From Kangiella sp. TOML190 (GTDB taxonomy: Bacteria > Pseudomonadota > Gammaproteobacteria > Enterobacterales > Kangiellaceae): a stretch of DNA of 64,000 nucleotides. The stretch's first letter is position 1. Each line of letters begins with the position of its first letter. Where the stretch lies: positions 1,054,001-1,118,000 of the forward strand of contig NZ_BQYL01000001.1 in assembly GCF_023706045.1 (NCBI RefSeq). The letters run 5' to 3'. Of this stretch, positions 55,198 to 60,285 are shown piece by piece. The position numbers were made by a program, and so were the translations under genes. The notes beneath the pieces were generated by a model. That model ran no database searches and was not told the DNA's origin. It saw only the letters and a program-made list of their open reading frames with translations.

Positions 55198-55895
55198 TTT
55201 CCGTCTTTTTTAATGCGCTCGTCATTCCGTACTTGTGACCAAAGAAATCTCTCTAGGGAGTGCGGATTTTAGTTTTTCTTGTCATTGCGAGGAAGCGAAG
55301 CTGACGCGGCAATCTCGCTGAGTCTTAGTATTGCGTCATTCTGATGAAAGTCAGAATATGGCTTTTATTGAGAGCTTTAGATTGGTGCCTGAGTTAATCC
55401 TCACGCTGTACTATTAAATCATGAACCTACTGTGTTTTCTTGTTCATTTCTTTGCACCTAAAGGTATTCCTTATAGTCATCCGCACAAAGAAAGGCGCCC
55501 TCATCACTGCGGCCTACGGCTTCCCTCAAACCTAAAGTTCATTAACGCGTCGTTTCAATGGGACTTCCCTGTCCCTTGAAACTCAATTTGTATCCACCTA
55601 ATTGTCGCTATTCATCTAACCTTCTCGGCTTGTGATAAGGGGGGAGTGGTGTGTTCTTAATCCCCTTTATATTTAGCTGAAGTAAAGGCCATTCATAGTA
55701 ATTCAAATCAGGACATGGATGTGCTGTTTTTCACGGTGCGTTAAGTGAATGGGCTTTGGTGAGGGAAGTCATTCGCAGAATGACCTGAATATTCGGGGAA
55801 ACTTCTTTTGGTTACTTTTCCAAGTTTGGAAAAGTAACTCGCTGAAAAGCGAAAAGCACTTTCTGTTAAATTTCCGATAAGTTAAACGCGCTATC
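55198..55895. repeat. gene-free island of short palindromic repeats
   Basis: No convincing gene lies in these 698 bases. Three units beginning GTCATT occur at 55221, 55281 and 55335, spaced by 60 and 54 bases, and a fourth at 55768 forms a perfect GTCATTC-GCA-GAATGAC hairpin. The unit at 55281-55320 (GTCATTGCGAGGAAGCGAAG, then CGCGGCAATCTC) resembles a repeat type widespread in bacterial intergenic DNA. Hairpins also occur at 55552-55582 (GTTTCAA-t-GGGAC / GTCCCTTGAAAC) and 55811-55838 (13-bp perfect arms), followed by a small one at 55839-55852. The region separates the gpsA run from the convergent trmL gene. Confidence 0.65.
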
Positions 55896-56357
55896 CTACT
55901 CAAAACTATTGAATTCAAATTGTCTCAAGGCTTCATACGCCAATATGGCAACCGTATTAGACAAATTTAAGCTGCGGCTATCTTTTTTCATGGGGATCCG
56001 TAGTAGGTTCGCGGCCATATCGTCTAAAATCCAGTCGGGCAGGCCGCGGGTTTCAGGGCCGAAGATAAAAAAATCGCCATCTTGATAATTGATTTCATGA
56101 TAATAGGCTTTGCCTTTGGTGCTCAGGCCAAATAGGCGCTTGGGTTGCTCGGCTGTTTTGAAGTGGTCATAAGATTTATGAATTTTGAGATTGGCCCATT
56201 CATGATAATCCAAGCCGGCGCGGCGCATGCGTTTGTCGTCAATTTCAAACCCCAGCGGCTCTATTAAATGTAGTTGAAAGCCAGTGTTGGCACAAAGACG
56301 GATAATATTGCCGGTGTTGGGTGGAATTTCTGGTTCAAATAAAACGATATGAAACAT
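55896..56357 (-). CDS. trmL: tRNA (cytidine/uridine-2'-O)-methyltransferase TrmL
   Basis: The 153-residue SPOUT protein has motif 1 [15 protein letters not shown], motif 2 Phe-Gly-Pro-Glu-Thr-Arg-Gly-Leu-Pro and motif 3 Arg-Ser-Leu-Asn-Leu-Ser-Asn-Thr-Val. It methylates the wobble nucleotide of leucine tRNAs. Its start overlaps the ntrC-like stop by one base, so it is likely co-translated with the regulator. Confidence 0.94.
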
Positions 56358-56977
56358 TAGTGGTTATCTTCATCAGGCGTGGTTTGCTCAAGCTGCCACG
56401 ATTGTAGTTTACGGGTGAGGGTATTGCGACCCCATCCGAGTAATTTTGCAGCTTTTTGTTTATGTCCTTGGCACAACTCGAGCGCTTGCTGCACCATAAA
56501 TTGCTCAAATTCGGTTTGCAGGCTCTGCAAGATTTGAGTATTACCTTGGTGGTATTCGGCTTGCAAGGTTTTATTGAGCTGCTGTTGCCATGGCGATAGT
56601 GGTTGTGGCTTATCGAGCGCCAAAGCTTTTTGGCAAATAGACACTGCTTGATTGAGATCAAAGGGTTTGGGCAAATAATCGAAAGCACCGATTTGATGCG
56701 ACTCGACCGCCATTTGCGTGTCGGTATTGGCCGTAATGATCACCACAGGCAACTGAGGGTAACGATTTTTGACCGTTTCCATCAATTCTAGACCGCTGAT
56801 CCCGGGCATTTGGACATCGGTGATCAAGACTTTAGGTGGTTCTTTTGCCACCAGCTTGAGCGCCTCTTGACCGTTGTCTGCGGCGACCACTTTAAAGCCT
56901 GCGTTGCTCAGCGCTTTGCTGAGCACCCAGCGAATGGAGCTGTCATCATCTACCAATAAAATCAATGGCTTATCCAT
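56357..56977 (-). CDS. ntrC: NtrC-type response regulator lacking the AAA+ sigma-54 activation domain
   Basis: This 206-residue intact frame has an NtrC-like receiver (about 1-118) with Asp10-12, phospho-acceptor Asp54, Thr82 and Lys104 in Phe-Asp-Tyr-Leu-Pro-Lys-Pro-Phe. A linker (about 119-155) follows, then a C-terminal Fis-type HTH with [22 protein letters not shown], a hallmark of NtrC. The roughly 250-residue AAA+ domain, with Walker motifs and GAFTGA, is absent; typical NtrC has about 470 residues. It overlaps ntrB by 8 bp. Without AAA+ it cannot activate sigma-54 polymerase in the known way. A sigma-70-type activator or repressor role is inferred. Confidence 0.9.
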
Positions 56978-58031
56978 ATACTCTTGCCTTCAGCGGTAAA
57001 TAACAATTAAACAGAGTTTTGCCTGGATTGGAGCTAAATTCGATTAAACCTTGGTGCTGTTGGATCAAACTTTGGGCAATGCCAAGCCCTAAACCAGAGC
57101 TGTTTTTGCCGCTGATCATGGGAAAAAATATATTTGGCTGAAGCTCTTCTGAGATCCCTGGGCCATTATCGATAATTTCAATTTTCAGCACCTGTTGGGA
57201 TTGATAGTTGACCAGCGGGTGATCTTTGCTGACCCGCGTTTTAAATTGGATCTCACCATCGACAGTTTTGGCATGACTTAAGGCTTCAATGGCGTTCTGG
57301 GCAAGATTCAACAAGACTTGATAGATTTGCTCGGGGGCTGCCTGAATTTCAGGCAAGCTGGGGTCGTAATCACGTTTAATACTAATCGATTTTGACAAGT
57401 TGAGGCTGATAAAGCTAATCACCTGTTCGATGATTTCGTGGATATTCGTATCGATTCGGCTGGCAACCTTTTGCCCCAGCAACATTCTGTCCACCAAATC
57501 CGAAAGGCGTTTCACTTCTTTGCTGACGATTTGGCTAATGGTTGATTTGGGGCTATTAGGATCATGAGATTCCATTTCCAACAGCTGGGCTGCACCTGCA
57601 ATTCCGCTCAGCGGGGTTTTAATCTCATGCGCTAGGTTTTGCAATAGTTGCCGCTGAATCGCTTGGTTTCGTTGCCATTCATGATCTTGCTTATGGCGTT
57701 GTAATAATTGGCTATTTTGCCACTCGATGAGTAAATGAGATTGGTTTTGGTAGTCAACTTTTTGCAATGATAAATCGGCAGCAAAGCGCTGACCGTTTTT
57801 GAGCTCAATCAGTCTGTGATCAAACAGCTTTGATTCTGCTTTAACCAGCTCCTGTAACCACTCCCGTACTGGCAGGCTGTTGGCGTCGACAAAATAGGAA
57901 TAGCGCTTGCCAAGCAAGTTTCTCGCGGTGATATTCAGACATTGCTCAGCCGCCTGGTTGAGGTAGCTAAAACGCCCCTTCATATCCAGTAAGATAATGG
58001 CGGTAGACATTTGATCGAGCAGGTTTTGCAT
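56970..58031 (-). CDS. ntrB: Nitrogen regulation sensor kinase NtrB (GlnL)
   Basis: The 353-residue cytoplasmic protein has a PAS domain (about 1-100), a HisKA domain with His135 in Asn-Leu-Ala-His-Glu-Ile-Lys-Thr-Pro-Leu-Ser-Gly-Ile-Ala-Gly-Ala-Ala-Gln-Leu-Leu, and an ATPase domain with Asn-Leu-Ala-Gln-Asn-Ala-Ile-Glu-Ala, Asp-Asn-Gly-Pro-Gly-Ile and Gly-Leu-Gly-Leu-Gly-Ile-Ala. It should phosphorylate and dephosphorylate the NtrC-type regulator in response to the PII protein. Catalytic residues are intact. An NtrC-box-like palindrome overlaps its predicted promoter. Confidence 0.93.
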   Translation of the reverse strand: MQNLLDQMSTAIILLDMKGRFSYLNQAAEQCLNITARNLLGKRYSYFVDANSLPVREWLQELVKAESKLFDHRLIELKNGQRFAADLSLQKVDYQNQSHLLIEWQNSQLLQRHKQDHEWQRNQAIQRQLLQNLAHEIKTPLSGIAGAAQLLEMESHDPNSPKSTISQIVSKEVKRLSDLVDRMLLGQKVASRIDTNIHEIIEQVISFISLNLSKSISIKRDYDPSLPEIQAAPEQIYQVLLNLAQNAIEALSHAKTVDGEIQFKTRVSKDHPLVNYQSQQVLKIEIIDNGPGISEELQPNIFFPMISGKNSSGLGLGIAQSLIQQHQGLIEFSSNPGKTLFNCYLPLKARVYG

Positions 58032-58061: not shown

Positions 58062-58067
58062 ATTGTA
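58062..58067 (-). promoter_or_regulatory. candidate -10 element of ntrB
   Basis: On the minus strand this reads TACAAT. A 17-bp spacer places the -35 hexamer exactly on the GGTGCA half of the NtrC box at 58085-58101, about 30 bp from the ntrB start. Confidence 0.45.
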
Positions 58068-58084: not shown

Positions 58085-58101
58085 TGCACCATATTGGTGC
58101 G
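58085..58101. promoter_or_regulatory. NtrC-box-like palindrome upstream of ntrB
   Basis: TGCACC-ATATT-GGTGCG matches the NtrC consensus palindrome TGCACC-N5-GGTGCA with one mismatch at the end. Its overlap with the predicted -35 region suggests repression of ntrBC by the regulator, as known for the glnL promoter in enteric bacteria. Confidence 0.75.
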
Positions 58102-58756: not shown

Positions 58757-60166
58757 TTAAAGGCTGTAGTACATTTCAAACTCAATCGGGTGAGTGGTCA
58801 TGTTCAATAGCGCGACTTCGCCACGTTTTAATTCGATGTAAGCATCCAACATTTCGTCCGAGAAGACGCCGCCACGAGTCAGGAACTCGCGATCAGCATC
58901 GAGCGCGTCTAAGGCTTGTTCTAGTGAAGATGCCACGGTTGGGATACTCAAGGCTTCTTCAGCGGGTAAGTCGTACAAGTCCTTATCCATAGCGTCACCT
59001 GGGTGGATCTTGTTCTGGATCCCGTCAAGACCAGCCATCATCATCGCAGCGAAAGCCAAATAGGGATTAGCCATCGGATCAGGGAAGCGCGCTTCGATGC
59101 GGCGAGCTTTGGCGCTTGGCACGTGCGGGATACGAATGGAAGCTGAGCGGTTTCGCGCCGAATAGGCGAGCATTACTGGCGCTTCGAAACCTGGAACCAA
59201 ACGCTTATAAGAGTTGGTTGAAGGGTTGGTAATGGCATTTAAAGCGCGAGCATGCTTGATCACACCGCCAATGTAGTAAAGTGCGTCTTCGGAAAGGCCG
59301 CCATACTTGTCGCCAGCAAAAATGTTAGTGCCGTCTTTGGCTAGAGACATGTGAATGTGCATGCCGGTACCGTTATCGCCAACGATGGGTTTGGGCATGA
59401 AAGTCGCGGTTTTACCATAAGCGTGTGCTACGTTGTGAGTCACGTATTTTAAGATCTGAACTTCGTCGGCTTTTTTCACTAAGGTATTGAATTGGGTAGC
59501 AATTTCGTTCTGACCGGCGGTCGCGACTTCGTGGTGGTGAGCTTCGATAACTAAGCCCATCTCTTCCATCACCAAGCACATTTGCGAGCGAATATCTTGC
59601 GAAGAATCCACTGGTGGAACGGGAAAATAACCGCCTTTGACGCCTGGACGGTGACCTGTGTTACCGTCTTCATAGCTTTTATCTGAGTTCCAAGCCGCTT
59701 CTGGATCGTCGATTTTAACCATTGAGCCGCTCATGTCGGTTTTGAACTTAACGTCTTCAAACATAAAGAACTCTGGCTCTGGGCCAAAGTAAGCGGTGTC
59801 GGCGATGCCGGTAGATTTTAAGTATTCCTCAGCACGTTTAGCGACTGAGCGAGGATCGCGGTCATAACCGGTCATGGTTGCCGGTTCAAGAATGTCGCAG
59901 CGTAAGTTTAAGGTCGGATCTTCAAAGAAGGGGTCCATCACCGCGGTTTCAGTATCTGGCATCAATACCATGTCCGATTCGTTAATGCCTTTCCAGCCAG
60001 CAATGGAAGAACCGTCAAACATCTTGCCATCGGTAAGGAAATCTTCGTCAACCTGGTGGGCAGGAATGGTCACGTGCTGCTCTTTACCCTTGGTATCGGT
60101 GAAGCGTAAATCGACGAATTTTACTTCGTATTCTTTAATCATTTCTAAAACGTTGCTGATTGACAT
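58757..60166 (-). CDS. glnA: Type I glutamine synthetase
   Basis: ATG 60166 has a GGAG site upstream and gives 469 residues, the family length. Visible are the Asp-Gly-Ser-Ser-Ile-x-Gly-Trp loop, Gly-Pro-Glu-x-Glu-Phe-Phe, the Asn-Gly-Thr-Gly-Met-His-like metal region (here Asp-Asn-Gly-Thr-Gly-Met-His-Ile-His), Asn-Arg-Ser-Ala-Ser-Ile-Arg-Ile-Pro, and Leu-Tyr-Asp-Leu-Pro with the adenylylation Tyr. It makes glutamine from glutamate and ammonia. It is probably adenylylated by GlnE and is controlled by the NtrB/NtrC pair downstream. Confidence 0.97.
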
Positions 60167-60210: not shown

Positions 60211-60216
60211 ATTATA
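60211..60216 (-). promoter_or_regulatory. candidate -10 element of glnA
   Basis: The minus strand reads TATAAT, a perfect sigma-70 -10. The -35 position (TACACC at 17 bp spacing) is poor, as in activator-dependent promoters. The centre of the NtrC box lies about 60 bp upstream of this element. Confidence 0.6.
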
Positions 60217-60268: not shown

Positions 60269-60285
60269 TGCACCAAAGTGGTGCA
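60269..60285. promoter_or_regulatory. NtrC box upstream of glnA
   Basis: TGCACC-AAAGT-GGTGCA is a perfect 17-bp palindrome identical to the NtrC consensus. It lies about 105 bp before the glnA start and about 72 bp before the predicted transcription start. Confidence 0.88.

Follow-up and report, generated by a model that had tools for sequence, protein, structure and literature searches.

An NtrC without AAA+ domain in Kangiella, most probably a class-I two-domain regulator of glnA

The stretch of DNA analysed here, which has a length of 64,000 nucleotides and is called the window in the following, harbors an ntrC gene whose product, judged from its sequence, is a genuine NtrC ortholog of Kangiella that lacks the AAA+ domain. 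NtrC is the textbook regulator acting via ATP hydrolysis on sigma-54 polymerase, and the Kangiella ortholog fails the AAA+ test that defines enhancer-binding proteins; most probably it works as a class-I two-domain response regulator. As the best explanation, to which as a whole we assign a probability of roughly three in four, the AAA+ domain was excised in the ancestor of the marine genus Kangiella; once phosphorylated, the short NtrC would turn on glnA by acting on the main RNA polymerase from a class-I site, and would act as a repressor at ntrBC.

Domain architecture and gene neighbourhood

The genome of the window consists of one contig of 2,454,686 bases. On the minus strand the genes follow in the order glnA, an ORF of 174 aa, ntrB, the short ntrC and trmL, and the features of this region apart from the promoters are:

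55896..56357, minus strand: trmL, downstream neighbour outside the switch (TIGR00185, 218.8 bits, cut-off 190.6)
56357..56977, minus strand: short ntrC, 206 aa with ATG start, composed of receiver, NtrC linker and Fis-type DNA-binding domain, without AAA+ (ORF, Pfam, NCBIfam, alignment)
56402..56512, minus strand: Fis-type HTH, residues 156-192, including a conserved 11-residue stretch (PF02954 HTH_8, 51.2 bits; invariant positions)
56591..56617, minus strand: junction, residues 121-129, where about 260 AAA+ residues are absent compared to full-length NtrC (alignment of 19 short and 11 full-length NtrC)
56642..56962, minus strand: receiver domain, residues 6-112, with the phospho-acceptor D54 as well as T82 and K104 (PF00072 Response_reg, 108.9 bits)
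56970..58031, minus strand: ntrB, cognate histidine kinase, 353 aa (NF008293, nitrogen regulation protein NR(II), 270.2 bits, cut-off 240)
58757..60166, minus strand: glnA, glutamine synthetase, 469 aa, predicted target (NF007006, 962 bits, cut-off 845)

In the Pfam search the short NtrC matched only Response_reg and HTH_8, and Sigma54_activat (PF00158) was unmatched. The best NCBIfam models are two NtrC models, each matching in two stretches: TIGR01818 with 193.5 bits against a whole-protein cut-off of 558.6, the receiver part covering residues 6-124, and NF008176 with 190.5 bits against a cut-off of 620. Both scores stay below these equivalog cut-offs because the middle of the model is absent from the protein. 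Aligned with 11 full-length NtrC proteins, four of the same family and seven of the same order, the short NtrC shows essentially one gap, which begins where the receiver ends, at about residue 121, and closes shortly ahead of the conserved linker Trp, and C-terminal of which the linker, the pre-HTH helices and the 11-residue HTH stretch are all kept. Since the AAA+ domain with its approximately 260 residues is absent, the protein has neither Walker A nor GAFTGA. Within the receiver, D54, T82 and K104 are invariant in 12 aligned Kangiella sequences, while two other positions set the genus apart from its full-length relatives: position 87 is Thr in 19/19 Kangiella proteins versus Leu in 11/11 relatives, and position 94 is His in 19/19 versus Tyr in 11/11. 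Both lie in receiver helix 4, through whose face NtrC signals to AAA+, and the drift of this helix in Kangiella fits the loss of the AAA+ partner.

An AlphaFold model of the short NtrC, based on a 12-sequence alignment (mean pLDDT 78.7, pTM 0.56), consists of the receiver, a low-confidence coil at residues 123-127, and helices at 129-144, 147-168, 173-180, and 184-198. The fold comparison of this model, to be read with its low pTM of 0.56, contributed little, returning receiver-only matches and two-domain regulators like StyR and FixJ with a large rmsd of about 15.

The gene overlaps with ntrB by 8 bases and with trmL by 1 base. The H-box and the nucleotide-binding motifs of NtrB are found in the window copy; across the genus, H-box, N-box and G2 motifs are matched in all 19 Kangiella, and the G1 pattern in 17 of them (it is unmatched in G001 and G009; genomes and loci are designated by our own handles). 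Furthermore, ntrB and glnA lie near ntrC in the window as well as in relatives, glnA of G008 being located on a separate contig, and a PII gene is kept in 19 of the 20 Kangiella genomes. By eye, the long gap between gpsA and trmL (window 55198-55895) contains a stretch that resembles a repeat (gtcattgcgaggaagcgaagc...) and may represent a dispersed element.

A preliminary description of this locus had claimed that AAA+ domain and GAFTGA loop are missing, that the receiver has the landmarks Asp54, Thr82 and Lys104, that the join is clean with a preserved linker, that the overlaps with ntrB and trmL are intact, and that the gene is derived from NtrC. The unmatched PF00158 search, the 12 Kangiella sequences, the single gap in the alignment, the ORF coordinates, and, for the origin, the leading NCBIfam models together with the tree described below bear this out.

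Conservation across Kangiella and short NtrC in other lineages

The short ntrC is present in 19 of 20 Kangiella genomes, the exception being G002, which is 55% complete. The encoded proteins comprise 202-220 aa when the start nearest to the receiver is chosen, whereas the 11 aligned relatives of family and order all have full-length NtrC. The preliminary description had named full-length ntrC in close relatives, combined with an assembly deletion in the window, as the finding that would speak against it; instead, the gene is short in every Kangiella genome that has it.

As domain loss is often a first step of decay, the gene could be regarded as a decaying remnant, or else as an assembly artefact. 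An assembly or sequencing artefact is ruled out, since the genome is a single contig and the same architecture recurs in 18 other Kangiella genomes. A pseudogene is ruled out by the pairwise dN/dS of 0.017-0.057. These values stem from the four of the 11 compared pairs whose dS was finite, in one case close to saturation; dS was saturated in the other seven, which gave no value. Moreover, the boxes and the partner kinase are retained, and the probability that we leave to decay or artefact is negligible.

In the NtrC tree the short Kangiella proteins form one clade with a support of 100/99, which is placed beside four full-length NtrC of their own family with a support of 99/97, at a point where long branches meet. 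Short forms also occur outside the genus. Among the matches listed for a class sample of 369 genomes, frames below 300 aa were found in G000, G419, G323, and G066, and among those listed for a phylum sample of 398 genomes G000 alone had the short form; beyond the listed matches, further short forms may exist in both samples. G419 and G323, which belong to one genus, have a short NtrC of 217 and 214 aa, respectively, beside ntrB and glnA, and rpoN is present. G066 has a short NtrC of 198 aa, also beside ntrB and glnA, and no rpoN match was obtained in this 96% complete genome. At glnA one NtrC-like box is found in G419, one in G323 and two in G066, with no -24/-12 element (0-1 mismatch) on the glnA strand in the stretches read of these three genomes; the box spacing of both lineages is unlike that of Kangiella. 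The two boxes of G066 (L250 3026-3072) lie 30 bases apart just upstream of glnA and one of them contains TATAAT, a layout which looks more like repression than activation.

The NtrC tree needs three changes to the short form. A test for one clade of all short NtrC gave p = 0.155, or 0.054 without the long-branch G066, with a long-branch warning in both runs. Independent excision in separate lineages appears likely, although the tree tests fall short of proof, and with a comparable short NtrC in two further lineages of gammaproteobacteria, excision may be recurrent.

The glnA and ntrBC promoters

For the scans we used the NtrC box consensus, TGCACCA-N3-TGGTGCA. The promoter features of the window are:

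58062..58067, minus strand: -10-like hexamer TACAAT at ntrBC, separated from the box by 17 bases
58085..58101, minus strand: NtrC box of the ntrBC promoter (CGCACCAATATGGTGCA), 1 mismatch to TGCACCA-N3-TGGTGCA, overlapping the -35 position
60211..60216, minus strand: -10 element TATAAT at glnA, separated from the box by 52 bases, with the box centre at about -72
60269..60285, minus strand: NtrC box of the glnA promoter (TGCACCACTTTGGTGCA), 0 mismatches, no other box with 3 or fewer mismatches being present in the scanned upstream stretch

Upstream of glnA, one NtrC box with 0-2 mismatches is present in all 19 Kangiella. A -24/-12 element (0-1 mismatch) was found in none of the 19, the best candidates having 2-5 mismatches, whereas it is present in all 8 readable relatives with full-length NtrC (of the 14 stretches read in relatives, glnA lies within 8 and is absent from 6). 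The -10 was sought as an exact TATAAT following the box, and where the tested range contained more than one, the most distant was chosen. In 18 of 19 Kangiella it begins 51-53 bases after the box, which puts the box centre at -71 to -73, and in G016 41 bases after it with a centre at -61, approximately one helical turn closer; in G003, G014, and G016 the box is followed more closely by another exact TATAAT. As a control, random positions drawn from these loci carry TATAAT at a rate of about 2 in 10,000. At spacings of 16-18, no -35 exceeds 3/6 matches in any of the 19 genomes. Since these promoters share ancestry, they are not 19 independent observations. The DNA before glnA appears rebuilt for the ordinary transcription machinery, and TATAAT is probably the -10 element in use. 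In the window, TTGACT is located about 30 bases upstream of TATAAT, which seems too distant for a normal -35, and the start of transcription may be more complex.

Class-I activators such as CRP sit at -61.5/-71.5. The Kangiella box resembles these in its position at about -72 or -61, on one helical face and before a poor -35, and the spacing fits class-I geometry in 18 of 19 genomes as well as, one turn closer, in the remaining one. In contrast to CRP, NtrC belongs to an unrelated protein family, and the contact to the alpha subunit is putative in Kangiella. It is because of this box position, the strong -10 and the poor -35 that we favor class-I recruitment of sigma-70 polymerase at glnA. Under nitrogen limitation NtrB would phosphorylate D54, and a dimer of the short NtrC would bind to the unchanged NtrC box, binding being predicted from the kept DNA-binding stretch and from near-consensus boxes at glnA and ntrBC in 19/19 genomes. 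The bound protein would then most likely recruit sigma-70 polymerase from the class-I position, probably via the C-terminal domain of the alpha subunit, so that neither ATP hydrolysis nor sigma-54 would be needed at glnA.

At ntrBC the arrangement is different. A box with 0-3 mismatches overlaps the -35 position in 19/19 Kangiella, followed after 16-18 bases by a hexamer with 5 or 6/6 matches to TATAAT in 18 genomes and with 4/6 in G008, the spacing range having been set after the layout was seen in a first pass. A box over the -35 would most likely lead to autorepression. The overlap is a classic repressor position and repression needs no AAA+ domain, and the short NtrC could therefore be conceived solely as a repressor or DNA-bound brake at both promoters, with glnA otherwise constitutive and relieved when NtrC is dephosphorylated. 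At glnA, however, the box stands clear of the core promoter, about 52 bases before the -10 and near a poor -35, which is the geometry of an activator, and the spacing is held at 51-53 with the one exception a helical turn off. Also the retained NtrB motifs (19/19, with the G1 pattern in 17/19) and the PII gene in 19/20 genomes argue against a mere brake, as does the fact that phospho-NtrC arises under nitrogen scarcity, i.e., when glnA is needed. We therefore regard pure repression as unlikely, and the role of the short NtrC at glnA as activation rather than repression is inferred from this geometry.

In the whole genome of the window the exact core GCACC-N5-GGTGC occurs at three places, two of which are the glnA and ntrBC boxes, and the reversed control at none. 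Across the genus the core is found in 2-5 copies in 19 of 20 genomes and in none in G002, compared to 0-5 copies of the reversed control, and there is thus little sign of a regulon beyond glnA and ntrBC. In G010, G018, and G011, the locus of a second PII gene is flanked on one side by an NtrC box or a pair of them (L099 3162-3218, L100 3161-3217, and L101 3146-3162), the pairs lying 40 bases apart; due to these boxes, the regulon may be larger in these three species.

Sigma-54 in Kangiella and comparison with known regulators

Of the 20 Kangiella genomes, 12 have a match to the DNA-binding domain of RpoN (PF04552). The genome of the window is one of them; the preliminary description had left the presence of rpoN there to be checked. 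The domain is unmatched in seven Kangiella genomes of 99-100% completeness and in the 55% complete G002. The seven rpoN-negative genomes, which form one clade with one change in the NtrC tree, keep the short NtrC, NtrB and both boxes, and the protein must therefore work without sigma-54 there. At the locus where rpoN lies in G006 and in the window genome, between lptB and hpf, all seven have lptB followed by hpf, ptsN, and rapZ with no rpoN in between (presumptive gene names). In all seven, a short ORF of 88-99 aa, alike by eye, lies between lptB and hpf (L251 1840-2136, L252 1852-2133, L253 1875-2174, L254 2784-3074, L255 1669-1935, L256 3148-3435, L257 2974-3264), which may be a small gene, a leader or due to chance.

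As the window genome has kept rpoN, a residual role of sigma-54 is formally possible there. It contains eight PF00158 matches, of which three were read, the other five being weak. Two of those read have an intact loop, GAFTGA or GAFTGS, and are either above the cut-off of TIGR02915 (PEP-CTERM-type) or below that of every listed family, and the third is decayed; no second full-length NtrC is among the three proteins read. With rpoN and two loop-bearing regulators at hand, the short NtrC could still serve sigma-54 by entering a mixed complex with another enhancer-binding protein whose AAA+ domain it would borrow, but the near-complete genomes without an rpoN match have kept short NtrC and boxes, and glnA is without a -24/-12 element (0-1 mismatch) in 19/19 genomes. 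Compared to class-I activation by the short NtrC itself, such a complex is thus very improbable.

Other regulators share the trend, and sigma-54 is, by all signs in these genomes, being retired in Kangiella. A published survey (PMC13063649) places its Kangiellales, four marine genomes of 2.4-2.8 Mb, among the free-living bacteria without flagellar genes, and absence of flagellar genes would remove a common need for sigma-54. The PEP-CTERM-type regulator has lost GAFTGA and kept Walker A in 7/7 rpoN-negative Kangiella (L107-L113), and has kept GAFTGA in the two rpoN-positive species read (L119, L123). In addition, an NtrC-type regulator with a decayed AAA+ domain (G000:C1:1764891-1765361, L125; likely orthologs L116 and L117) is devoid of Walker A and GAFTGA in each of the three species read, with a DNA-binding end that looks intact; where the neighbour was read (L125, L116), it adjoins a sensor kinase, the pair being presumably PilS/PilR-like.

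Like canonical NtrC, or NR(I), of the E. coli type (TIGR01818), the Kangiella protein has the receiver, the linker, the Fis-type DNA-binding domain, the partner NtrB, a nearby glnA and the DNA box, and it differs by the missing AAA+ domain of about 260 residues with Walker A and GAFTGA. The glnA promoter of Kangiella has one box and is sigma-70-like, whereas one or two boxes and a -24/-12 promoter are found in the relatives read, and sigma-54 enhancer-binding proteins in general differ by the PF00158 match that the short NtrC lacks and by the -24/-12 element missing at glnA. With the redox regulators RegA/PrrA/ActR it shares the layout of receiver and Fis-type HTH that characterizes the RegA family. 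The likeness to RegA/PrrA asserted in the preliminary description therefore holds for the layout, but not for family membership: the model NF033791 gave 71.9 bits against a cut-off of 250 and covered the receiver only (residues 6-115), and the NtrC models score far higher. The description's idea of a rewired nitrogen switch is supported, as the switch looks rewired at the level of both protein and promoter.

In one article (PMC10274813), the NtrC of R. capsulatus, which lacks GAFTGA, is reported to activate through sigma-70, and Caulobacter NtrC is described as likewise lacking the GAFTGA loop and acting at sigma-70 promoters; both keep AAA+ and need ATP binding, and for Caulobacter hydrolysis is argued as well. 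The Kangiella protein would resemble these two in being freed from sigma-54 and acting on housekeeping-type promoters, and it goes further because the whole ATPase domain is gone. Among the titles and abstract openings of the literature matches listed, a scope outside of which most subscription journals fall, no published NtrC without AAA+ was found.

With not quite even odds, and hence tentatively, we propose that AAA+ excision is a recurrent exit from sigma-54 control, which no fewer than three lineages of gammaproteobacteria (Kangiella, the genus of G419 and G323, and the genus of G066) would have taken at nearly the same boundary, with ntrC remaining beside ntrB and glnA. The switch would thereby have turned into a sigma-70 regulator of class I, which would have opened the way to the loss of rpoN seen in seven Kangiella and perhaps in G066, and the same route could explain the origin of two-domain RegA/PrrA-like regulators. 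Throughout Kangiella, sensor, DNA site and target persist, and the motor has been dropped, as has, in one clade, the sigma factor. Since the family preserves the stages, namely full-length NtrC in the relatives, short NtrC together with rpoN, and short NtrC without rpoN, the stepwise replacement of a sigma factor's control logic is directly testable here.
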